64,000 nucleotides of DNA from positions 116,050-180,049 of the forward strand of contig JAKSQM010000006.1 in the NCBI GenBank assembly GCA_024404115.1, written 5' to 3'. Origin of the DNA: Clostridia bacterium. Its GTDB lineage: Bacteria > Bacillota > Clostridia > Oscillospirales > Acutalibacteraceae. The notes beneath the pieces are model-generated. The model was not told the origin of the DNA and made no database searches. It saw nothing but the letters and a program-made list of their open reading frames with translations. Every line of letters begins with the position of its first letter. Position 1 is the stretch's first letter. The position numbers were made by a program, and so were the translations under genes. This document shows positions 4,052 through 47,423 of this stretch, in pieces.

Positions 4052-5713
4052 TTATATGCTCTTTTTGATATTCTTGAGTCGCTTCATAACATCATTTACG
4101 CCTGTGCCGAAATAATCGTGAAGAATGTTGTATTCCTCATAAAGCTTATCATACATTTCAGCATTCTCTTTAATGGGAGTGTAAACAGTATCTTTAAGTT
4201 TGCCCATTGCACCTGCGGCTGTGAAGATGTCAGCGTATCCGCCATTTTCAACGCCTGCTGCAACAGATGCGTAAATTGCACTGCCAAGAGCGCCGCACTG
4301 TGTTGTGCCTGCAATTTTAATAGGCTTGTTGAGGATGTCAGCGTAAATCTGCATTGTCATAGGATCTTTCTGACTGATTCCGCCAGAAGCGATGATTTCA
4401 TCAACCTTAACCCCGTTATTCTGATATGTTTCAACAATTTTTCTTGTGCCGTAAGCGGTAGCTTCAATAAGCGCACGGTACATTTCTTCGGGCTTTGTCT
4501 GAAGTGTCATACCAAGCATCATACCTGTAAGGTCGCCGTCAACAAGAATACTTCTGTTGCCGTTCCACCAGTCAAGTGCAATAAGTCCGCTTTCGCCGGG
4601 TTTATATTTCTCTGCCTTTGAGCGGAGATATTTGTGAATGTTTATGCCCTGCTTCTCTGCTTCTTCAACATAGCTGGCAGGAACACAATTTTTAATAAAC
4701 CATGAGAAATGGTCGCCAACGCAAGCCTGACCAGCCTCATAAGCATAAAGGTTGGGATAAACACCGCCTGCAACAACACCGCTGATACCAGGAACAAGAT
4801 GTTCCTCCTCAGAAACAAGAATGTGACAGGTTGATGTGCCCATAATAGCAAGAAGAATGTTTGGCTTTGTGATTTTAACTGCGGGAACAGCAGCGTGAGC
4901 ATCAATGATAGCAGTTGTAACTGTCATGCCCTCGTTAAGACCCAGCTTCTCTGCCATATCTGCGGTAAGACCGCCAACTCTGTCGCAAAGCTGAACGATA
5001 GGATAGTTGAGCTTATCTTCAACAAAGTTTTCAAGGCGTGGGTCAAGTGCTTTAAGGAAATCCTTTGAGGGATAGCCTTCTTTGTTGTGCCACAAACCCT
5101 TGTAGCCTGCACAGCATGTGTTCTTGCCAAGAACTCCGCAAAGCTGCCAGATAACCCAGTCGGCTGCTTCAACTATGTAATCTGCTTCGTCATAAATTTC
5201 GGGTGCTTCGTCAAGAATCTGCCATGCCTTTGGAAGCTCCCATTCACTTGAAACTTTTCCGCCGTAACGCTTAATCCATTCCTCGCCCATTTCGTTTGCC
5301 TTTTCGTTAATGAGGTTGGCTTTGTCCTGTGCAGCGTGATGCTTCCAAAGCTTAACATATGCGTTAGGCTCGCTCTTGTATTTCTCCATCATGCAAAGAG
5401 GTGTGCCGTCTTTTTTAACAGGGAGAATGGTGCAGGCTGTGAAGTCAACACCAAGACCGATAACATCGTCAGGTGAAACACCGCTCTCTTTCATAACAGC
5501 AGGGATAGTGTTGTAGAAAACATCAAGATAATCCTGTGGATACTGAAGTGCCCAGTCAAAGCCTAACTTTGTGCCGTCTGGCAATGTGTCATCCATAACA
5601 CCGTGTGGATATTCAAATGTGCTGTCTGCAAGCTCTTTGCCTGTTTTAACGTCAACGATTGCGGCTCTGCCCGAAGCTGTGCCGAAATCTACACCGATAG
5701 TATATTTACTCAT
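4052..5713 (-). CDS. araB: ribulokinase
   Basis: The 553-residue FGGY-family kinase phosphorylates L-ribulose (or D-ribulose) to the 5-phosphate in arabinose use. The first actin-like domain opens with GVDFGTASGRA at residues 7-17, typical of AraB, followed by GLGVDFTACT. The second domain carries IMGTSTCHILVS and the ATP-binding IIASGGISQKDPM. The length is normal for ribulokinase. The gene has its own promoter and no araA or araD beside it. A rpe gene at 46.1 kb could use the pentose phosphate product. GGAGG precedes the ATG. Confidence 0.9.
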   Translation of the reverse strand: MSKYTIGVDFGTASGRAAIVDVKTGKELADSTFEYPHGVMDDTLPDGTKLGFDWALQYPQDYLDVFYNTIPAVMKESGVSPDDVIGLGVDFTACTILPVKKDGTPLCMMEKYKSEPNAYVKLWKHHAAQDKANLINEKANEMGEEWIKRYGGKVSSEWELPKAWQILDEAPEIYDEADYIVEAADWVIWQLCGVLGKNTCCAGYKGLWHNKEGYPSKDFLKALDPRLENFVEDKLNYPIVQLCDRVGGLTADMAEKLGLNEGMTVTTAIIDAHAAVPAVKITKPNILLAIMGTSTCHILVSEEEHLVPGISGVVAGGVYPNLYAYEAGQACVGDHFSWFIKNCVPASYVEEAEKQGINIHKYLRSKAEKYKPGESGLIALDWWNGNRSILVDGDLTGMMLGMTLQTKPEEMYRALIEATAYGTRKIVETYQNNGVKVDEIIASGGISQKDPMTMQIYADILNKPIKIAGTTQCGALGSAIYASVAAGVENGGYADIFTAAGAMGKLKDTVYTPIKENAEMYDKLYEEYNILHDYFGTGVNDVMKRLKNIKKSI

Positions 5714-5751
5714 AGAAAATTCCTCCGTAAATCTTTTGTTTACACTAAAAC

Positions 5752-5780
5752 ATTATATAGTAATATGCTTTATATGTCAA
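5752..5780 (-). promoter_or_regulatory. sigma-A promoter for ribulokinase
   Basis: On the minus strand TTGACA (5775-5780) and TATAAT (5752-5757) are separated by exactly 17 bases. This places the start about 30 bases upstream of the araB ATG. Confidence 0.75.
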
Positions 5781-5866
5781 AGATTTATTTTAAAAAATGT
5801 AGAAATAAGAGGGATAATGTGGTATAACATACAGACGAAAGTCTATTATTAAAAGGAGAATGTAAA

Positions 5867-6157
5867 ATGGCAGATATTTTTGAAGCGATAATGATAATTC
5901 TTTTTGGTATTTCATGGCCTGTGAATATCAGTAAGCTTGTAAAAAACAAAACGGCAAAGGGCACGAGCGTGCTGTTTTATTATCTTATTGAGGCAGGCTA
6001 TGCCGTTGGTATTGCGGCAAAATTCGTCAAGCTCAATAACGGAATTTCAACCCCGTGGTATGTGTGGTTTTTCTATATTCTCAATTTCTGCATGGTCTTT
6101 GCAGGCATTGTGATTTATTATAGAAATAAAAAACTTGATAAAGAAAAAATCTCTTGA
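5867..6157 (+). CDS. SemiSWEET / PQ-loop-like small membrane protein
   Basis: The 96-residue protein has three predicted membrane helices (about residues 5-22, 37-58 and 66-86) and a basic tail. This is the size and topology of bacterial SemiSWEET sugar transporters. The first helix holds GISWPVNISK followed by TAKGTS, similar to the PQ-loop region but with Pro-Val instead of Pro-Gln. It is divergent from araB, which makes a sugar role plausible but unproven. AAAGGAG precedes the ATG. The membrane topology is clear; the transport role is inference. Confidence 0.65.
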   Translation: MADIFEAIMIILFGISWPVNISKLVKNKTAKGTSVLFYYLIEAGYAVGIAAKFVKLNNGISTPWYVWFFYILNFCMVFAGIVIYYRNKKLDKEKIS

Positions 6158-6182
6158 CATCTTGTCAATATTTTGCTATAAT
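6154..6182 (+). promoter_or_regulatory. promoter of the rpsF-ssb-rpsR operon
   Basis: TTGACA (6154-6159) and TATAAT (6177-6182) with a 17-base spacer, both perfect consensus, as expected for a ribosomal protein operon. The -35 box overlaps the stop codon of the preceding gene. Confidence 0.9.
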
Positions 6183-6188
6183 TCTTGC

Positions 6189-6235
6189 CCGTGGTAAATT
6201 TTATGCCACATCCTTGGCACGCAAGTGCCCATTAT
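6189..6235 (+). promoter_or_regulatory. structured rpsF leader, possible S6:S18 autoregulatory element
   Basis: The leader between promoter and rpsF contains a stem GGCAC-gcaa-GTGCC (6216-6229) and an adjacent GTGG/CCAC pairing (6191-6209). rpsF leaders in many bacteria carry an RNA motif bound by the S6:S18 complex. Position and hairpins fit, but I did not match the conserved motif base by base. Confidence 0.4.
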
Positions 6236-38798: not shown

Positions 38799-38836
38799 AA
38801 ACGGTTATGAGAAAAACAAATCTCATAACCGTTTTT
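38799..38836. terminator. bidirectional intrinsic terminator
   Basis: AAACGGTTATGAGA pairs with TCTCATAACCGTTT around a short loop, with T-runs on both strands. It lies between convergent genes (SGNH hydrolase and the transglutaminase-like lipoprotein). Confidence 0.85.
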
Positions 38837-40909: not shown

Positions 40910-42763
40910 TTACCTCTTTTTAAAAATAAGGGCGGTGTGCTCCGCAATTTCTGCATAGTTTTCTGCCACATATCCGTCGCCGAATACTTTTTCGCAGTTG
41001 TTCCATTCCTGTGGAAAATAATATTTTATAGAGTGATTGTTGCTGTTTGCAATAACAAGAATATCTTCGCCCCTTGTGAATGCAACACAGCCGAGGGTAG
41101 CCGAAACAGTGGAATATCTGCCGTCAAAAAATGCGCCGTTTTCCCGTCTGATTTTGCCGAGAGCTTTGTAATATTCAATAAGCTCCTTGTCCTCATTGCC
41201 CCACGGGTAAAATCCTCTGTTAAACGGGTCTTTGTAGCCCTCCATGCCTGCTTCGTCGCCATAATAAACCGACGGAACACCGGGGAGAGTGAATTGAAGC
41301 ACAGCCGCTTCTTTTAAAAGCATCAGGCCCTCTTTTCGCTTTTCTGCTGAAAGAATTCTGCCGGCCTGCCACTGCCTGTCTTTATATTCACAGCTTTCAC
41401 CCGCAAGGGCGGTTATGGCTCGTGCAGTGTCGTGCGTTCCAATGTGATTCATGAGCACATCAACAACAGGCTTCGGATAATTCTCTGTGATTTTTAAAAT
41501 CGTTTTGTTAAAATTTTCTGCTGTGCCATATCGTACAAAGTCGATTATCGCATCTGCAAAGGGATAATTCATAACGCTGTCAAGCTGCTGACCCTGCAAG
41601 TATCTTCTTCGTTTGCCATAGCTTGATTTGTTTGAGGCATCCTCCCAAACTTCGCCTAAAATAAGTGCGTCGGGATTTTCTTCTTTAACGCCTTTTCTGA
41701 ATGAATCAAGAAATTCGTCTGGCAGTTCGTCAGCGACATCAAGTCGCCATCCGCCTGCACCAAGAGAAAGCCATTTTTTTGCAATGCCGTTTTCTCCAGA
41801 AATAAAGTCTATAAATTCGGGCGTTTCCTCTATGATTTCGGGGAGAATTTTTACACCCCACCAACATTCATAATCATCTGGCCAATTTTTGAATTTGTAC
41901 CATTTATAATATTCTGAATTTTTACTTTCGTATGCGCCGAGGGTATCGTATCTGCCCTCTTTATTAAAATATCGGCTGTCTGAGCCTGTGTGGCTGAAAA
42001 CACCGTCAAGAATAATCTTTATTCCGTATTCCTCCGCTTTTTTGCAAAGAGATTTAAAGTCATCCTCTGTGCCAAGAAGCGGGTCGATTTTTTTATAATC
42101 AGCGGTGTCATATCTGTGATTACTGTGTGCCTCAAAAATCGGGTTAAGATAAACACAGCTTACACCAAGTGAAGCAAGATAAGAGAGCTTATTTTGAATG
42201 CCTTTAAGGTCGCCGCAAAAATAATCGTTGTTAAGTGTCTTGCCATTTTCGTCCGGTCGCCAGAATGGCTCACCGTCATAGTCAATTCTTAAAATTCTGT
42301 CAGAGGGAACACCCTCTTTCTTTTCGCCGGAAAAGCAGAATCGGTCGGGGAAAATCTGATAAATTATTCCGCCCTTTAACCAGTTAGGTGTGGTGAAGCT
42401 TTTATCATAAACTGTCAGCTGCCAGCTTTCGCCACTGCCTGTTAAAATGCCTTCCTGTCCGCCTGCGTTTGAAAAAATTCCGCTTGAGCCAAAGTTGTAA
42501 TCATATTCAAAATGATAAAAATATAACCCTGCTTCGTTAAAAGGAATCTGAATTTTCCACCATTCCTCATTATTGCCCTGCATACAATCCCAGTTCATAG
42601 GGATTTTCTTTTCGTTTTCGCCGTCTTTTTTTATAACAAGCCTTGCGCCAGTGCAGCAAAAATCCCGTGGCAAAATAATGCGGAATGTTACCTCTGTTTC
42701 AGTTTTCACTGCGCCAAAGGGATATTTGTGATAGTCTTTGCCTGAGTTAAAAGGAATATACAT
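40910..42763 (-). CDS. glycoside hydrolase family 13 enzyme (neopullulanase/cyclomaltodextrinase-like)
   Basis: The product is about 617 residues from the ATG at 42763. An N-terminal carbohydrate-binding beta domain (residues 1-130) precedes the GH13 barrel. The four conserved regions are present: DGVFSHTG, GWRLDVADEL (nucleophile Asp), GEVWED (acid/base Glu) and NHIGTHDT (third Asp). The fused N-domain and NWLKGGIIYQIFPDRF fit neopullulanase/maltogenic amylase-type enzymes that act on maltodextrins in the cytoplasm; there is no signal peptide. Its stop and the next ATG overlap, so it is in a tight operon with Rnf-like genes. Confidence 0.9.
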   Translation of the reverse strand: MYIPFNSGKDYHKYPFGAVKTETEVTFRIILPRDFCCTGARLVIKKDGENEKKIPMNWDCMQGNNEEWWKIQIPFNEAGLYFYHFEYDYNFGSSGIFSNAGGQEGILTGSGESWQLTVYDKSFTTPNWLKGGIIYQIFPDRFCFSGEKKEGVPSDRILRIDYDGEPFWRPDENGKTLNNDYFCGDLKGIQNKLSYLASLGVSCVYLNPIFEAHSNHRYDTADYKKIDPLLGTEDDFKSLCKKAEEYGIKIILDGVFSHTGSDSRYFNKEGRYDTLGAYESKNSEYYKWYKFKNWPDDYECWWGVKILPEIIEETPEFIDFISGENGIAKKWLSLGAGGWRLDVADELPDEFLDSFRKGVKEENPDALILGEVWEDASNKSSYGKRRRYLQGQQLDSVMNYPFADAIIDFVRYGTAENFNKTILKITENYPKPVVDVLMNHIGTHDTARAITALAGESCEYKDRQWQAGRILSAEKRKEGLMLLKEAAVLQFTLPGVPSVYYGDEAGMEGYKDPFNRGFYPWGNEDKELIEYYKALGKIRRENGAFFDGRYSTVSATLGCVAFTRGEDILVIANSNNHSIKYYFPQEWNNCEKVFGDGYVAENYAEIAEHTALIFKKR

Positions 42764-43125
42764 CAATAATTACCTGCCGAATTATTCTGAACAGCAGATT
42801 GCTGTGAAGTACTGCTCTGAGAGTTATCACTTTCAGAAGATGCTGCCGTTGTGGTCGTAGTTGTTGTGGTGTTAATAAAAGCGGCAGTGTATGTGTTTTT
42901 ATCGTTATAAGGCTCCTGCGAAATTGACATAAGGGAATCAGTGATGCCGAAGCCGAGAATTATAAAGAAAATTGTCATAATAACCATAAGGACGATTGTA
43001 ACAATTTTTTTGGCTGTCTTTTTATTTTTTTCAGCAGGGCTTAAAGACACAGTATCGTCATACTGATTTTCTTTAAAATCTGCAAATGCTCTGCGCCGTC
43101 TTGCGCCGTTATATTTTTCATCCAT
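42763..43125 (-). CDS. single-pass membrane protein with Thr/Ser-rich tail
   Basis: The 120-residue protein has a charged, Arg/Lys-rich cytoplasmic N-terminus (about 40 residues), one membrane helix near 41-65 (VTIVLMVIMTIFFIILGFG) and a low-complexity exported tail with eight Thr in a row, then Ser, Gln and Asn. It looks like a small anchor or scaffold. In canonical Rnf operons this position is held by RnfB, which is quite different. Its stop codon overlaps the GH13 start (TGATG). AAGGAGA precedes its own ATG. Confidence 0.7.
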   Translation of the reverse strand: MDEKYNGARRRRAFADFKENQYDDTVSLSPAEKNKKTAKKIVTIVLMVIMTIFFIILGFGITDSLMSISQEPYNDKNTYTAAFINTTTTTTTTAASSESDNSQSSTSQQSAVQNNSAGNY

Positions 43126-43137
43126 CTGAAATTCTCC

Positions 43138-43731
43138 TTATGCAAAAACTCCGCTGCCAGAGATGCCCATAAATGTGAGCGAAAGCATTGCCACATAAAT
43201 AAACATAACGGGCGCACCTCTGAATGCTTTTGGTATTCTTTTTTCTTTAGAAAGCTTTGTGAATCCTGCACCGATTAAAAGTGAAGCCAGAACAAACGCA
43301 ATTCCCGAACCGAAGCCTGTGCCGATACTTTCCCACAAGGTCATGGCTGAGCGGTAGTTGATTAAAGGAATGGCAAGAACAAGTGTGTTCAGTGCGGCAA
43401 TGCCGAAGTTTGACATCAGCTTTTTGTTTGGTCTTAATAAAATAACTGTGAAAATGCAGGTGATAAGGTAAACGAAAATAAGCACACCTACAAAAATGAG
43501 AAAATGAATGGAGCTGTTTTGTGATGCAACTTTTTCGTTAAAATCAAGCAGACGGCATATAACAGATGTTATTGTGGAAAACCACACAATCATACCAGCC
43601 GCAGAAGCAAGTCGCCTTGGCTTCGCCGCCATGCGGACAGCTTCGCTTATACCGTATCCGCCGCTGAATATTAAATTCTGCACAACTATAGCATAAAGTG
43701 CCGCCGACATCATGTCAAAAAAACTGCTCAT
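43138..43731 (-). CDS. RnfA-like membrane subunit lacking cluster cysteines
   Basis: The 197-residue protein has six predicted helices. It aligns to RnfA/NqrE across its length, best at the C-terminus (IPKAFRGAPVMFIYVAMLSL against RsxA [20 protein letters not shown], then FMGISG against FMGFSG). In canonical RnfA, LGICP and TTNCAVLG provide two cysteines for the intramembrane 2Fe-2S cluster. Here the matching positions read YGISEA and ALNTLVLA, with Ser and Thr, so both ligands are lost. It is therefore unlikely to carry electrons in the known way. It is placed with RnfE- and RnfD-like genes in one operon. Confidence 0.8.
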   Translation of the reverse strand: MSSFFDMMSAALYAIVVQNLIFSGGYGISEAVRMAAKPRRLASAAGMIVWFSTITSVICRLLDFNEKVASQNSSIHFLIFVGVLIFVYLITCIFTVILLRPNKKLMSNFGIAALNTLVLAIPLINYRSAMTLWESIGTGFGSGIAFVLASLLIGAGFTKLSKEKRIPKAFRGAPVMFIYVAMLSLTFMGISGSGVFA

Positions 43732-43746
43732 TTTCTCACCTCTTTT

Positions 43747-44463
43747 TTAAAAATTTTCTTCATTCTTTTTAAATCTGTTTTTCAGATTATAGGTGAATGT
43801 TCCCTCTTCTTCTCTCGATTCATCAAGAGTGAATTTCTTTTCAATAGTTCTTGCCTGCTTGGGATAATTTTTAATAACCCTCGCTTTATGAAGTGCCGCA
43901 AGAATACCGATTATAAATAATCCGCCAAAAGGCATCAGCGCACCGTTAAGTCCGCTGATAAACGGAATGTCGAAGCCTGCAATTTTTCCGCTTCCCACGA
44001 TTTCTCTGATAATTCCCACAAGCAGCAGCACAGCGGAATATCCTATAGAAGAAGCGATTGCATCAAAAAACGATTCTTTGACAGAATGTTTAACAGCATA
44101 TTTTTCACTGTGAATACAGGTGAAAGAGTTCATCGCCATCAACGGCAGATAAATGCCGAGAGATGCAAAAACTGGCGACTGATTTTTTTCAAGATAATAC
44201 ATCACAGGGAAAACAATACCTGTATTTATTATAACATAAATGCTCACTCTCAACCATCTTGGCATTTTTTTCATAATAAGGCTTGCAAGCACCTCGCAGA
44301 TAATCAGCGAAACAGTGAATACACCAGCCAGAACAAGAGAGTTAAAAAGTGATGTTGCCGCCGCCGCAACGGGGCAGATACCAATAACATGAACAAGAAC
44401 AGGGTTGCGGAGGTAACCGCCAACTCTTATCATTTTTTTAAGAGAAACTTTTTTATCACTCAA
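43747..44463 (-). CDS. RnfE-like membrane subunit
   Basis: The product is 238 residues from the TTG at 44463, which follows an extended ribosome binding site, GGAGGTGATTCC. It aligns to RnfE/NqrD: NPVLVHVIGICPVAAAATS against the canonical NxALVQLLGLCPLLAVT, then GIYLPLMAMNSFTCIHSE against GIFIPLIVTNCIVVGRAE. The first cluster Cys is kept; the second is Ser, with a different Cys three residues on. The C-terminus has a longer, charged cytoplasmic tail. It overlaps the RnfD-like gene by 8 bases and lies upstream of the RnfA-like gene. Confidence 0.8.
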   Translation of the reverse strand: MSDKKVSLKKMIRVGGYLRNPVLVHVIGICPVAAAATSLFNSLVLAGVFTVSLIICEVLASLIMKKMPRWLRVSIYVIINTGIVFPVMYYLEKNQSPVFASLGIYLPLMAMNSFTCIHSEKYAVKHSVKESFFDAIASSIGYSAVLLLVGIIREIVGSGKIAGFDIPFISGLNGALMPFGGLFIIGILAALHKARVIKNYPKQARTIEKKFTLDESREEEGTFTYNLKNRFKKNEENF

Positions 44464-45460
44464 GAGGAATCACCTCCGAGTCATTCTCTTTTTTGTGTGG
44501 AGAAAAAATATATTTCTCTAAAAGAGGCCACAGTGCATTTATACCGAGAACGGCAAACGCTCCTGCATCCTCAAAAATGCTGAAATGCCTTAAAAGCAAA
44601 TAACCCACTGCACCCAAACAGCCGTAAATAATTCGGTGAATTATCTTTTCGGGGGATTGAGGCTCTTCTGTTATAAGAAAAACTCCAATGCAAAGTGTGA
44701 AGCCCGAAAAGAATCTTATGCAAATCATTCTCAGTGCGTTAAGCTCAAAAATATTGCCATAATCAACCGCAACGGTTATTACACAGCCGATAAAGCAGGT
44801 GGCAATAAAGCTGATGGCATTGACGAAACTTTTAGGTCTTCTTATAAGAATGTAAAATAACAATCCTAAAAGAACAACTGCCGATGTCATACCCATAGGA
44901 CCCGCCACAGAGCCGATAAAGCCGTTTATCAGTTCAACTGCGGTTACGCCGTGAGTTTTATTCTGCAAAAGGCTTTGTGCAAGGGATGTTCCTGCCACAA
45001 AATTCTCTGAACCGAAAGCATCTACAGCCGAGTCGATTTTTAAAACGGGATAAGCAAAAAGCTCATTGCTTTTACATATACATAAAAATGAAAACGCCGC
45101 CGCAGTGCACGAAAACGGCGAAGAGTAAATTCCGCCAAAAGGAATTTTAACCAGCATCACTGCAAAAACACTGCCGAGGGCGGGAATCCACAGCCGAACA
45201 GATGCAGGCAACATTAAAGCAAGCAATACGCCAATATAAATGCTTCCGCAATCGTAAAGCCTTAATTTTTGATTTATGAGCTTGCTTCCTATAATTTCAC
45301 TGATGACCGCTGCCGAAACGCTCACCAAGCAAACAAGAGCGGCTCTTTTGCCATAGAAATGAAGTGCCATTATAAGGGGCAAAATCAGCGCAGGCAACAT
45401 ATCTTTATAAAATGTATCTTTTTTATTTTTTATTGGTGATGCTTCAGGCAATCGGTTCAC
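44456..45460 (-). CDS. RnfD-like membrane subunit
   Basis: The product is about 334 residues with nine or ten helices; a TTG start at 45451 is also possible. It aligns to RnfD/NqrB: YDCGSIYIGVLLALMLPAS, KIPFGGIYSSPFSCTAAAF and the late FFSGFTLCIGVFLITEEPQS, matching the canonical FPPAAFAR and FGGATYLITDPVS-type helices loosely. The flavinylation motif SGAT-x-L is changed to VAGTSLA, so covalent FMN at Thr is uncertain. It is the first gene of the operon. No RnfC is upstream; the divergent mecA-like gene starts 79 bases away. Confidence 0.75.
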   Translation of the reverse strand: MNRLPEASPIKNKKDTFYKDMLPALILPLIMALHFYGKRAALVCLVSVSAAVISEIIGSKLINQKLRLYDCGSIYIGVLLALMLPASVRLWIPALGSVFAVMLVKIPFGGIYSSPFSCTAAAFSFLCICKSNELFAYPVLKIDSAVDAFGSENFVAGTSLAQSLLQNKTHGVTAVELINGFIGSVAGPMGMTSAVVLLGLLFYILIRRPKSFVNAISFIATCFIGCVITVAVDYGNIFELNALRMICIRFFSGFTLCIGVFLITEEPQSPEKIIHRIIYGCLGAVGYLLLRHFSIFEDAGAFAVLGINALWPLLEKYIFSPHKKENDSEVIPLE

Positions 45461-45538: not shown

Positions 45539-46078
45539 ATGAATATTCATCTTATTAACAAAAATAAATTTATTGCAGAGCTAAGCGAAAAGGATATGAA
45601 TGACCTCGATATTACATATGAGGAAATGGATTATTCAAACATCGAAACAAGGCGGGTAATCTGGACAGTGATTGATAAAATCCGTGAAACCTCTGGCTGT
45701 GATATTGACCCCACAGGCAATCTGCTTATTGAAGCCGTGGCAGATTCAGAGGGCGGATGCGTTCTTTGCTTCACTGTTACAGAAAGACGCAGACCTGTTT
45801 CGCAGAAATCTCCCGTTCTTAAAAAGAACAGAGGAGGTGCTGTCTATGAATTTGACACAATGGATTCGCTTCTTGATATGATTAAAGCGGTCGGCTATAA
45901 AAATCTCAGCGGAAAATGCAGAGTGTTTAAACGAAAAAGCAGAGTTCGCCTTGTTATGAATAAGCTCCCTGCTCAGCCTGAAAAGAAATCCATTGAAGAA
46001 TACGGCAGATTCATCGGTCAGGATGACCTGCTCAACGCTCAGACTGCGGAGCATTGGGAAAGAGCAGGAGGAATTTAA
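45539..46078 (+). CDS. mecA: MecA-like ClpC adaptor protein
   Basis: The 179-residue protein has the MecA layout. An N-terminal substrate-binding domain (residues 1-75: MNIHLINKNKFIAELSEKDM then DLDITYEEMDYSNIETRRVI) leads to a variable linker. A C-terminal domain (residues 100-170) carries AVYEFDTMDSLLDMIKAVGY and EYGRFIGQDDLLN, as in the ClpC-docking part. It probably delivers substrates to ClpC/ClpP. It is shorter than Bacillus MecA. It is divergent from the Rnf-like operon and convergent with rpe. CGGAGGA precedes the ATG. Confidence 0.75.
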   Translation: MNIHLINKNKFIAELSEKDMNDLDITYEEMDYSNIETRRVIWTVIDKIRETSGCDIDPTGNLLIEAVADSEGGCVLCFTVTERRRPVSQKSPVLKKNRGGAVYEFDTMDSLLDMIKAVGYKNLSGKCRVFKRKSRVRLVMNKLPAQPEKKSIEEYGRFIGQDDLLNAQTAEHWERAGGI

Positions 46079-46731
46079 GCGTTTCTTAATTTTTCGATAG
46101 CTTCTTTTCTATCCTCAGCACCAAAAACAGCACTGCCTGCAACAAGAACGTCGGCACCTGCCTTTTTAACAAGGGCGGCTGTGTCGGCGTTTATTCCGCC
46201 GTCAACCTGTATAAGCATATCTTTAATGCCACGCTTTTCACATTCAGCCTTGATAGCTTCAATTTTAGGCATCATGTCGCCCATGAATTTCTGACCGCCA
46301 AAGCCAGGCTCAACTGTCATAATCAGCACCATGCCGATTTTATCAAGATAAGGGAAAACAGCCTCAGCAGGAGTTTTAGGCTTAACGCTCAAGCCTGCCA
46401 TCTTGCCGTTTTTGTTTATTTCATCAATTGTTGCGTCAATGTCAGAATCACATTCAACGTGGAAAGTTATTCCGTCCGCCCCTGCTTTTACAAAATCGTT
46501 GATATAGAAAAGCGGGTCGCTTATCATCAGATGAACATCAAAGAATTTCTCTGAATAAGAGCGGAAAAATTTCATAACGGGTGCGCCGAAAGTGATGTTT
46601 GGCACAAAATGGCCGTCCATAACATCAATATGAATCCAATCGGCTCCGCAGGCAGAAATATCAGCAATCTCGTTGCCTGCCTTACTAAAATCGCAAGAAA
46701 GAATTGACGGTGCAATCAGTGTTTTTTTCAT
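46075..46731 (-). CDS. rpe: ribulose-phosphate 3-epimerase
   Basis: The product is 218 residues from the ATG at 46731, with AGGAG upstream. It is a TIM-barrel epimerase with IAPSILSCDF, WIHIDVMDGHFVPN (catalytic Asp and His), HLMI, TVEPGFGGQKF and QVDGGIN (second catalytic Asp). It interconverts ribulose-5-phosphate and xylulose-5-phosphate in the pentose phosphate pathway. Its start overlaps the metallophosphoesterase stop (ATGA), so they are translationally coupled. Araban degradation via ribulokinase (4.1 kb) also feeds this pool. Confidence 0.95.
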   Translation of the reverse strand: MKKTLIAPSILSCDFSKAGNEIADISACGADWIHIDVMDGHFVPNITFGAPVMKFFRSYSEKFFDVHLMISDPLFYINDFVKAGADGITFHVECDSDIDATIDEINKNGKMAGLSVKPKTPAEAVFPYLDKIGMVLIMTVEPGFGGQKFMGDMMPKIEAIKAECEKRGIKDMLIQVDGGINADTAALVKKAGADVLVAGSAVFGAEDRKEAIEKLRNA

Positions 46732-47423
46732 TTTACTTTTTCTCCTGTCAGTAATTTTACAAGGTTTCTGTAAACTGCAACATGGGATGGTGAAACCTGC
46801 TTGTCCTCGTGGATACTTCCAAAATACCATCTTGTGAATTTACAGCTTGAGTTAATCTCTTCAAAATATGCGTTAAGACCTGTGAAACGCACATTCTCTT
46901 TGTCTTTAAGGTTAAGGAATGCTTTGATTTTCTGCGGCGGCTCATGGGTGATAATAAAATCAACTGCGAATTTTTCATTTTCAAGATTTTTAACGCCCTC
47001 TTTAAGCTCGTCAGCGGCAGGAATCTCTGCCTTTGACCATGTGTCGTTATCAAATCTTATGTCAATGTCGGGGCTTTCACCGCCGCCCATGGCAAATATG
47101 CGCTCGCCCTCAATTTCAAAAACCTGACCACGCATAAGGTGATATATGTTATCTCTTATTTTATGAGCCTTGCCCCCTGCAAAGCCAACAATGGGGTATC
47201 TTGCCAGCAGGTCAAAGTTTTCGTGAGTGCCGTCAACAAAGCATATAGTGTAAGACTTTTTTGCCAGCTTGTCAAGAACGGTCTTTTCGTTTTTATCACC
47301 GTTCCAGATAAATCCAAAATCACCGCAGATAATAAGCGTATCGTGCTTTTTAAGATTTTTGGTAAATAAGGACTGTTTGAAGATTTTGTAATCTCCGTGC
47401 ATATCTCCTGTTACATAAATCAT
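46728..47423 (-). CDS. calcineurin-like metallophosphoesterase
   Basis: The product is 231 residues from the ATG at 47423, with CGGAG 8 bases upstream; a GTG 9 bases earlier overlaps that site. The metal-binding blocks are present in order: YVTGDMHGD, IICGDFGFIW, FVDGTHENFD, IITHEPP and YFGSIHED. It is a small phosphohydrolase of unknown substrate. It is coupled to rpe by a 4-base overlap, so a sugar-phosphate or nucleotide role is possible but unproven. Confidence 0.85.
   Translation of the reverse strand: MIYVTGDMHGDYKIFKQSLFTKNLKKHDTLIICGDFGFIWNGDKNEKTVLDKLAKKSYTICFVDGTHENFDLLARYPIVGFAGGKAHKIRDNIYHLMRGQVFEIEGERIFAMGGGESPDIDIRFDNDTWSKAEIPAADELKEGVKNLENEKFAVDFIITHEPPQKIKAFLNLKDKENVRFTGLNAYFEEINSSCKFTRWYFGSIHEDKQVSPSHVAVYRNLVKLLTGEKVK

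Follow-up and report, generated by a model that had tools for sequence, protein, structure and literature searches.

What do three adjacent genes for Rnf-like membrane proteins do when the other subunits of Rnf, the Na+/H+-translocating ferredoxin:NAD+ oxidoreductase (RnfABCDGE), are not encoded around them? The question is raised by a stretch of 64,000 nucleotides from a Clostridia bacterium of the family Acutalibacteraceae (contig JAKSQM010000006.1, positions 116,050 to 180,049; this whole stretch is hereafter called the window). On its reverse strand, homologues of RnfD/NqrB (D', 44456..45460, 334 amino acids (aa), GTG start), RnfE/NqrD (E', 43747..44463, 238 aa, TTG start) and RnfA/NqrE (A', 43138..43731, 197 aa) follow one another in this order and with tight spacing, D' and E' overlapping by 8 base pairs (bp) and E' and A' lying 15 bp apart. 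The answer that we favour, giving it close to an even chance if not quite that much, is that D', E' and A' together form a membrane complex that goes back to the duplication of an Rnf operon; it would have lost electron transfer and may now let cations (Na+ or H+) across the membrane, as a carrier or channel, without any redox step. The comparisons show homology, the absence of three, and in some sets of all four, cluster cysteines, a locus without detected RnfB or RnfG, a three-gene block kept at one genomic site and purifying selection on that block; from these, we infer that a complex forms, that it acts as a carrier, which ion it takes and where Glu30 of A' sits in space.

The reading of the three open reading frames (ORFs) as adjacent RnfD-, RnfE- and RnfA-like genes, made in the original prediction, was upheld by Pfam matches above the curated cut-offs (PF03116 at 151.1 bits for D', PF02508 at 110.8 bits for E' and at 55.1 bits for A'). 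These matches rule out a chance similarity to the Rnf-Nqr families, and the same pattern in 61 further genomes excludes it as well. The closest solved structures to the three proteins were Rnf and Nqr chains, and the NCBIfam models rnfD, rnfE and rnfA scored 107.4, 100.3 and 46.9 bits, far under their cut-offs of 207.05, 213.4 and 229.3 bits. For D', PF03116 was the sole Pfam match over its cut-off, with no fusion to PF00175. The window was also said to be devoid of RnfB, RnfC, RnfG and ApbE, and this was borne out, since no match was found at E 0.01 with our models of RnfB, RnfC and ApbE, and a 10.8-bit match of the RnfG model to a frame overlapping a dacA-like gene was taken as chance. No NqrF or NqrA was seen among seven scanned locus proteins, no search with NqrF or NqrA models having been made.

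Residue columns were taken from alignments (MAFFT; phmmer) with Rnf chains of known structure and with canonical RnfA and RnfE, and are given in Acetobacterium woodii numbering, the counts referring to 62 D-E-A sets (the window and the 61 genomes) compared with nine canonical sets. According to the parts of PMC11889175 used here, the cluster ligands of A. woodii Rnf are C25 and C113 in RnfA and C25 and C108 in RnfE. In A' of the window, both [2Fe-2S] ligands are gone, C25 being replaced by Ser29 (codons of Ser29-Glu30 at 43642..43647, reverse strand, in the place of Cys25-Pro26 of canonical RnfA) and C113 by Thr116 (codon at 43384..43386, reverse strand), whereas E' retains C25 as Cys30 and has Ser113 at the C108 position. 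These are the Ser and Thr in RnfA, and the one Cys kept and the other turned into Ser in RnfE, that had been proposed by comparison with RsxA and RsxE, and alignment to the solved and canonical chains confirmed all four. One of the four cluster cysteines is therefore left in the window, and none of the 62 D-E-A sets has more than one: no Cys occurs at A C25 (46 Ser, 10 Thr, six others), at A C113 (54 Thr, 8 Ser) or at E C108 (43 Ser, 8 Pro, 7 Ala, 4 Gly), and E C25 is Cys in 51. All nine canonical sets have the four cysteines.

Cysteines at shifted positions had been named as a counter-check, and A' of the window has none within 6 residues of either cluster site; some were seen among the other A' proteins, 3 to 4 residues before the C113 site in nine of the 62 and 6 residues before the C25 site in two. 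A cluster rebuilt with such shifted cysteines was considered; these few cases and the lack of Cys at both sites in all 62 A' proteins leave a general four-Cys A/E cluster unsupported. On these alignments, the loss of the intramembrane [2Fe-2S] cluster in D-E-A cassettes appears close to certain.

A second, complete rnf operon, which it had been proposed to seek in the same genome, was found on another contig (C14) of the source assembly (83.8% complete, 44 contigs). It has the order apbE...rnfCDGEAB with all four cluster cysteines present, and it holds the only FMN_bind and ApbE matches of the genome; the cassette is thus a diverged paralogue, and further rnf copies are possible in an assembly of this completeness. 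Genes for RnfB, RnfC, RnfG and ApbE elsewhere had been named as a finding that could speak against a loss of electron transfer if they served the cassette. They are present, as just described, but they come with D, E and A genes of their own, and cassettes of the alternative type persist in relatives that have no canonical pair.

To place the cassette among its relatives, 148 related genomes were searched with D' and 398 genomes of the family with A', and both searches returned many second copies; a scan of genome contigs with E' picked up one relative. In the A' search, at least 63 listed places at 145 bits or more, the window included, were of the D-E-A type, and at least 77 listed places at 88–136 bits were mostly of a C-D-E-A type where fetched; below about 88 bits, canonical RnfA matches as well. 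One hundred loci, picked by score and not at random, were fetched and their genes labelled by hidden Markov models (HMMs), which gave automatic classes of 63 D-E-A loci, 25 with an alternative C, eight canonical and three partial, with one locus (L069) in no class. Two short contigs with the upstream end cut (L071 and L146, the latter grouping with C-D-E-A sets in the tree) were excluded from the D-E-A counts, leaving 61, and the partial loci L131, L135 and L138 were counted apart, the first two stopping at a contig end and the third belonging to genome G448. The search among relatives for D-E-A cassettes without B, C and G, suggested at the outset, thus yielded the 61 further genomes. In each of these 61 loci, D' is preceded, among the labelled genes, by mecA or rpe, and C, G and B are found in none. 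The same site is marked in the window by a mecA-like gene (45539..46078, forward strand), divergent from the cassette, and by rpe (46075-46830, reverse strand).

The C-bearing loci lie at the same genomic site wherever their upstream end is visible. Twenty-two of the 25 also encode E and A, and three (L074, L076 and L078) are C-D loci without detected E or A, an absence that rests on the HMM search and on unlike downstream ORFs. These three, from genomes G049, G034 and G018, look as if the same paralogue had been pared down in another way, with rpe-mecA visible in the first two. In the 22 C-D-E-A sets with A and E aligned, A C25 and E C108 are lost in all, and A C113 is Cys in six. The site is also occupied in other families of the order, by D-E-A beside rpe-mecA in one (L187–L189) and by C-D-E-A in a further one (L068); all four of these loci keep the second RnfA cysteine (FNCAVLG) and are possible intermediates of the loss. 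Across the 91 alternative loci, no RnfG match was found at E 0.001, and the RnfB model gave only five matches, of 17–23 bits (under the 25-bit cut), all of them on C proteins.

A D+E+A tree of 96 leaves, in which L063, L147, L071 and the sets lacking any of the three genes were left out, has one branch (support 1.0) splitting 87 alternative from nine canonical sets. The 62 D-E-A sets, that of the window included, form one group (support 0.98), several deeper branches being weakly supported, and a smaller tree of 38 sets likewise parts canonical from alternative sets. A class-wide search of 391 genomes with an alignment of alternative A proteins gave, among the matches listed, nothing outside the order above 125.2 bits, which is only a rough outer limit because alternative and canonical RnfA are not separated below about 127 bits. 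Nine places among the matches listed exceeded 140 bits, six in the family of the window and three in another family (f26) of the same order.

Whether the alternative type can stand alone was looked at in 17 genomes, 16 of them chosen as showing one copy, plus the source genome. In 11 of the 17, a single Rnf-Nqr E/A pair of the alternative type was found: G320 (100% complete, one contig), G177, G277 and G261 (99%), G164, G244 and G380 (98%), G068 (97%), G151 (93%), and G408 and G448 (both 86%). Eight of them were typed by fetched loci, as D-E-A in G408, as a split D-E plus A in G448 and as C-D-E-A in the other six, including G320; G277, G151 and G261 were typed as alternative by score only. Five other relatives, besides the source genome, gave canonical-level matches too. 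No FMN_bind protein was detected in eight of the 11 single-pair genomes, and the other three have one elsewhere. This argues that, in those species at least, the alternative type has no need of subunits from canonical Rnf.

The block also seems to be under purifying selection. In three pairs within the genus, the ratio of nonsynonymous to synonymous substitution rates (dN/dS, NG86) was 0.15–0.18 for D', 0.13–0.16 for E' and 0.07–0.14 for A', compared with 0.05–0.23 for neighbouring genes, values that are rough because dS is high in some pairs. With ratios of 0.07–0.18, pseudogenes were rejected. Separately, four matches in relatives (G198:C139, G435:C338, G723:C160 and G074:C23), each to A or D, carry one in-frame stop in the matched stretch. 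Within the genus, the block is present in five of 18 genomes, and in the other 13 mecA is followed by an amylase gene, with no match to D', E' or A', not even a partial copy, in the 2.8–3.5 kb examined; it appears, therefore, that the block is gained or lost there as a unit. Outside the genus, its parts can come apart, as seen in G448 and at the C-D loci. Taken together, the cysteine loss in 62 of 62 sets, the lack of RnfG and RnfB at the 91 loci, the purifying selection and the genomes with the alternative type only sustain the view, put forward in the original prediction, of a complex that lost electron transfer and kept its membrane core.

What the core may still do is suggested by residues around the gate. 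As described in the parts of PMC11889175 used here, a buried site binds Na+ more tightly once the A. woodii cluster is reduced, and R67 and E115 of RnfE form a gating ion-pair network with E88 of RnfA; the mutants R67A and E115K did not grow, E115Q was drastically reduced, and L103G was left with 11% of the oxidoreductase activity. E' of the window retains Arg72 (R67; codon at 44248..44250, reverse strand), Leu108 (L103) and Glu120 (E115; codon at 44104..44106, reverse strand). Among the 62 D-E-A sets, R67 is Arg in all, E115 is Glu in 60 and Asp in two, and L103 is Leu in 51, with five Ile, four Val and two Met. Position 26 of A is Glu in all 62 sets and in the three partial loci, against Pro in 9/9 canonical sets, and in the window this clade-invariant residue is Glu30, adjoining the first lost cysteine. 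Arg33 of A is likewise found in 59 of the 62, where the nine canonical sets have Gly. The A glutamate, within an SEA motif, was also seen in the C-D-E-A locus L168/L191 of genome G164, by convergence or because of a misplaced branch.

We propose the redox-free cation carrier because the E side of the gate is retained, the cluster and the A side are gone, and a glutamate is invariant next to the first lost cysteine. The A/E cluster of Rnf, once reduced, places a negative charge in the middle of the membrane, which draws Na+ into an alternating-access gate. Glu30 of A', beside the former cluster position, could offer a permanent or protonatable negative charge in the stead of the reduced cluster, the gate residues on E' (Arg72, Leu108 and Glu120) are retained, and D', with the urea/ammonium-transporter-like fold of RnfD, would serve as a structural partner or as a second pore. 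That a redox-driven respiratory pump turned in this way, within one bacterial order, into a redox-independent ion transporter, a glutamate replacing the charge of the cluster and the alternating-access gate being kept, is a proposal that we hold somewhat more tentatively than the carrier reading as such.

Several observations weigh against a carrier of this kind. The RnfA side of the Na+ path is lost, E88 and T111 being gone in all 62 sets and T110 being Ala in 56 and Thr in none, and the A. woodii mutant T110G did not grow (PMC11889175, in the parts used). The same source reports that E115A grew like the wild type, which makes the retained Glu weak proof of gating. In the sister C-D-E-A group, Arg67 is kept in 19 of 22 sets, Glu115 in only two (Asp in four) and the A glutamate in one, so the mechanism would be specific to D-E-A; the C-bearing locus L168 has the A glutamate, yet lies outside the D-E-A clade. 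There is no obvious reason for the Cys kept at E C25 in 51 sets. The case for D-E-A without a canonical pair depends on two genomes of 86% completeness, G408 and G448. In G448 the block is split, with mecA next to D'-E' and A' on a separate contig, and three sister loci hold C-D only. Both halves of the split block (L192 and L193) are away from contig ends in the stretch viewed, a rearrangement or an assembly fault being conceivable.

The rival explanations differ in what they leave to the core. It could be a non-transporting scaffold or regulator, for instance one anchoring envelope proteins, with E' tails and single-transmembrane (single-TM) neighbours as partners. This is unlikely in our judgement, although in several relatives E' ends in a long C-terminal tail that is charged and of low complexity (up to 502 aa in one comparison and 697 aa in another), single-TM proteins are encoded downstream at a number of loci (all seven of those scanned matching PF13200, a putative glycosyl-hydrolase family), and the cassette of the window is followed 3', on the same strand and closely spaced, by genes for a small single-TM protein (42763..43125, reverse strand, 120 aa), an alpha-amylase-family enzyme and an LCP-type protein. 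The E' tail of the window is itself short, the neighbours differ between genera, with unrelated ones at other loci, a single-TM gene like that of the window is present in 12 of 12 inspected genus members without D-E-A, and a scaffold leaves the invariant glutamate at the former cluster site unexplained. Less likely again is a transporter or sensor of metal ions or small molecules that uses E' Cys25, a new E' cysteine at position 114 and A' Glu30. The new Cys is found in 59 of the 62 sets, together with Cys25 in 48, and the glutamate in all; however, the window has Ser at 114, with Cys at 111 instead, and Cys25 is absent in 11 sets, which means that the thiols are not strictly required.

A slightly lower probability still is given to electrons being moved by another route, from a flavin at Ser159 or Thr158, within D' and, in the sister group, onward to the C protein with its 4Fe-4S clusters. 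The change of the RnfD flavinylation motif from SGAT to AGTS, noted before, is less clear than it seemed and is no clean loss, a hydroxyl residue remaining: the flavin mononucleotide (FMN)-threonine column falls on Ser159 by MAFFT and on Thr158 by phmmer, and two of the nine canonical RnfD also have Ser there (the other seven, Thr). By MAFFT, this column holds Ser in 56 and Thr in two of the 62 D-E-A sets, 58 in all, and in favour of the route are also the 16 aligned alternative C proteins, which keep both 4Fe-4S motifs, the three loci with C-D only and the detection of ApbE in 15 of the 17 tested genomes. Against it, the riboflavin ligand N123, replaced by Ser117 in D' of the window, is lost in 60 of the 62 sets and kept in two, no RnfG was detected at the alternative loci, D-E-A has no C, the 16 C proteins lack the GGxGFP motif, and ApbE was not found in G244 (98% complete) or G448 (86%). 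At the second riboflavin-ligand column, D249, the window has Glu265, and the D-E-A sets have Asp in 38 and Glu in 13. That the cassette proteins replace or join canonical Rnf subunits of the same cell is very improbable; the source genome does have both sets, and the five relatives with canonical-level matches would allow it, but 11 of the 17 genomes have the alternative type only, on which ground such sharing was rejected, and the canonical operon here has its own intact D, E and A. The least credible explanation is a decaying duplicate: the absence of the block from 13 of the 18 genus genomes and the stops in a few relatives would agree with it, and the low dN/dS, the intact frames in the window, the residues invariant across the clade and the occurrence in many genera speak against it.

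A redox-free cation carrier, the reading we prefer, would set the cassette apart from the systems to which it is related. With Rnf it shares the D-E-A order, the homologous D', E' and A' and the E-side gate residues; unlike Rnf, its locus has no RnfB, RnfC or RnfG, three of the four [2Fe-2S] ligands and the riboflavin ligand Asn are lost, a glutamate stands beside the lost cysteine, and C is absent from D-E-A and divergent in the sister group. Na+-NQR (NqrABCDEF) has homologous B, D and E subunits, and an origin by duplication of the rnf operon, with loss of rnfB, has been proposed for it too (PMC4014512, in the part available). NQR recruited NqrF and keeps its [2Fe-2S] cluster and flavins, whereas the cassette lost the cluster and no recruited redox subunit is seen alongside it. 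Partial Rnf/Nqr systems are known from genome surveys as NQR/RNF-like (Meheust et al. 2021; PMC8238504, PMC10979944) and, as far as these texts were available, are two-subunit systems within flavinylation clusters, made of an NqrB/RnfD-NAD-domain fusion and an RnfG-like flavoprotein; the cassette, by contrast, has E and A, no detected flavoprotein and a D' without PF00175. The likeness to urea/ammonium transporters runs through the fold of RnfD/NqrB, which accessible parts of PMC12174285 and PMC9588780 describe as structurally related to them; D' is known here from its sequence, with PF03116 as its Pfam family. The literature searched, of which most subscription papers were not part, describes no cluster-less system of the D-E-A or C-D-E-A kind.

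The path of Na+ is debated, being placed through RnfA/E in PMC11889175 and through RnfD in PMC9588780 (both seen in part), and a natural core that lacks the cluster and keeps the RnfE gate offers a test of the parts of the ion path and of running without redox. If a redox pump did turn into such a redox-independent transporter, D'E'A' would found a transporter family of its own, a new one, and amount to an uncoupled Rnf mutant made by nature. As D', E' and A' pass the Pfam cut-offs of the Rnf-Nqr families, counts of rnfA, rnfD and rnfE based on Pfam only overstate Rnf bioenergetics in this group.

Around the cassette, a consensus scan of the window detected a hairpin at 38799-38834 and no more promoter-like sites in the cassette surroundings than expected by chance. 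The next same-strand gene after that of the LCP-type protein encodes what we take to be a transglutaminase-like protein. The single-TM neighbour was rejected as an obligatory partner, being present in the 12 inspected genomes where D-E-A is absent. It is Thr-rich and resembles the anchor at the N-terminus of putative glycosyl hydrolases (PF13200), with the enzyme domain missing, and PF13200 proteins occupy its position in some relatives. The E' tails of L043, L044, L049, L050, L064 and others look cytoplasmic, a few with an SLDDII-like motif near the end, and those of the window and of four genus members viewed are short. The mecA-like protein of the window matches the MecA profile only at its N-terminal part (1–81 of 221). 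Finally, in L044, a gene for a CAP-domain (PF00188) lipoprotein-like protein (5418-6191) lies between D' and E', in the place that rnfG has in canonical operons.

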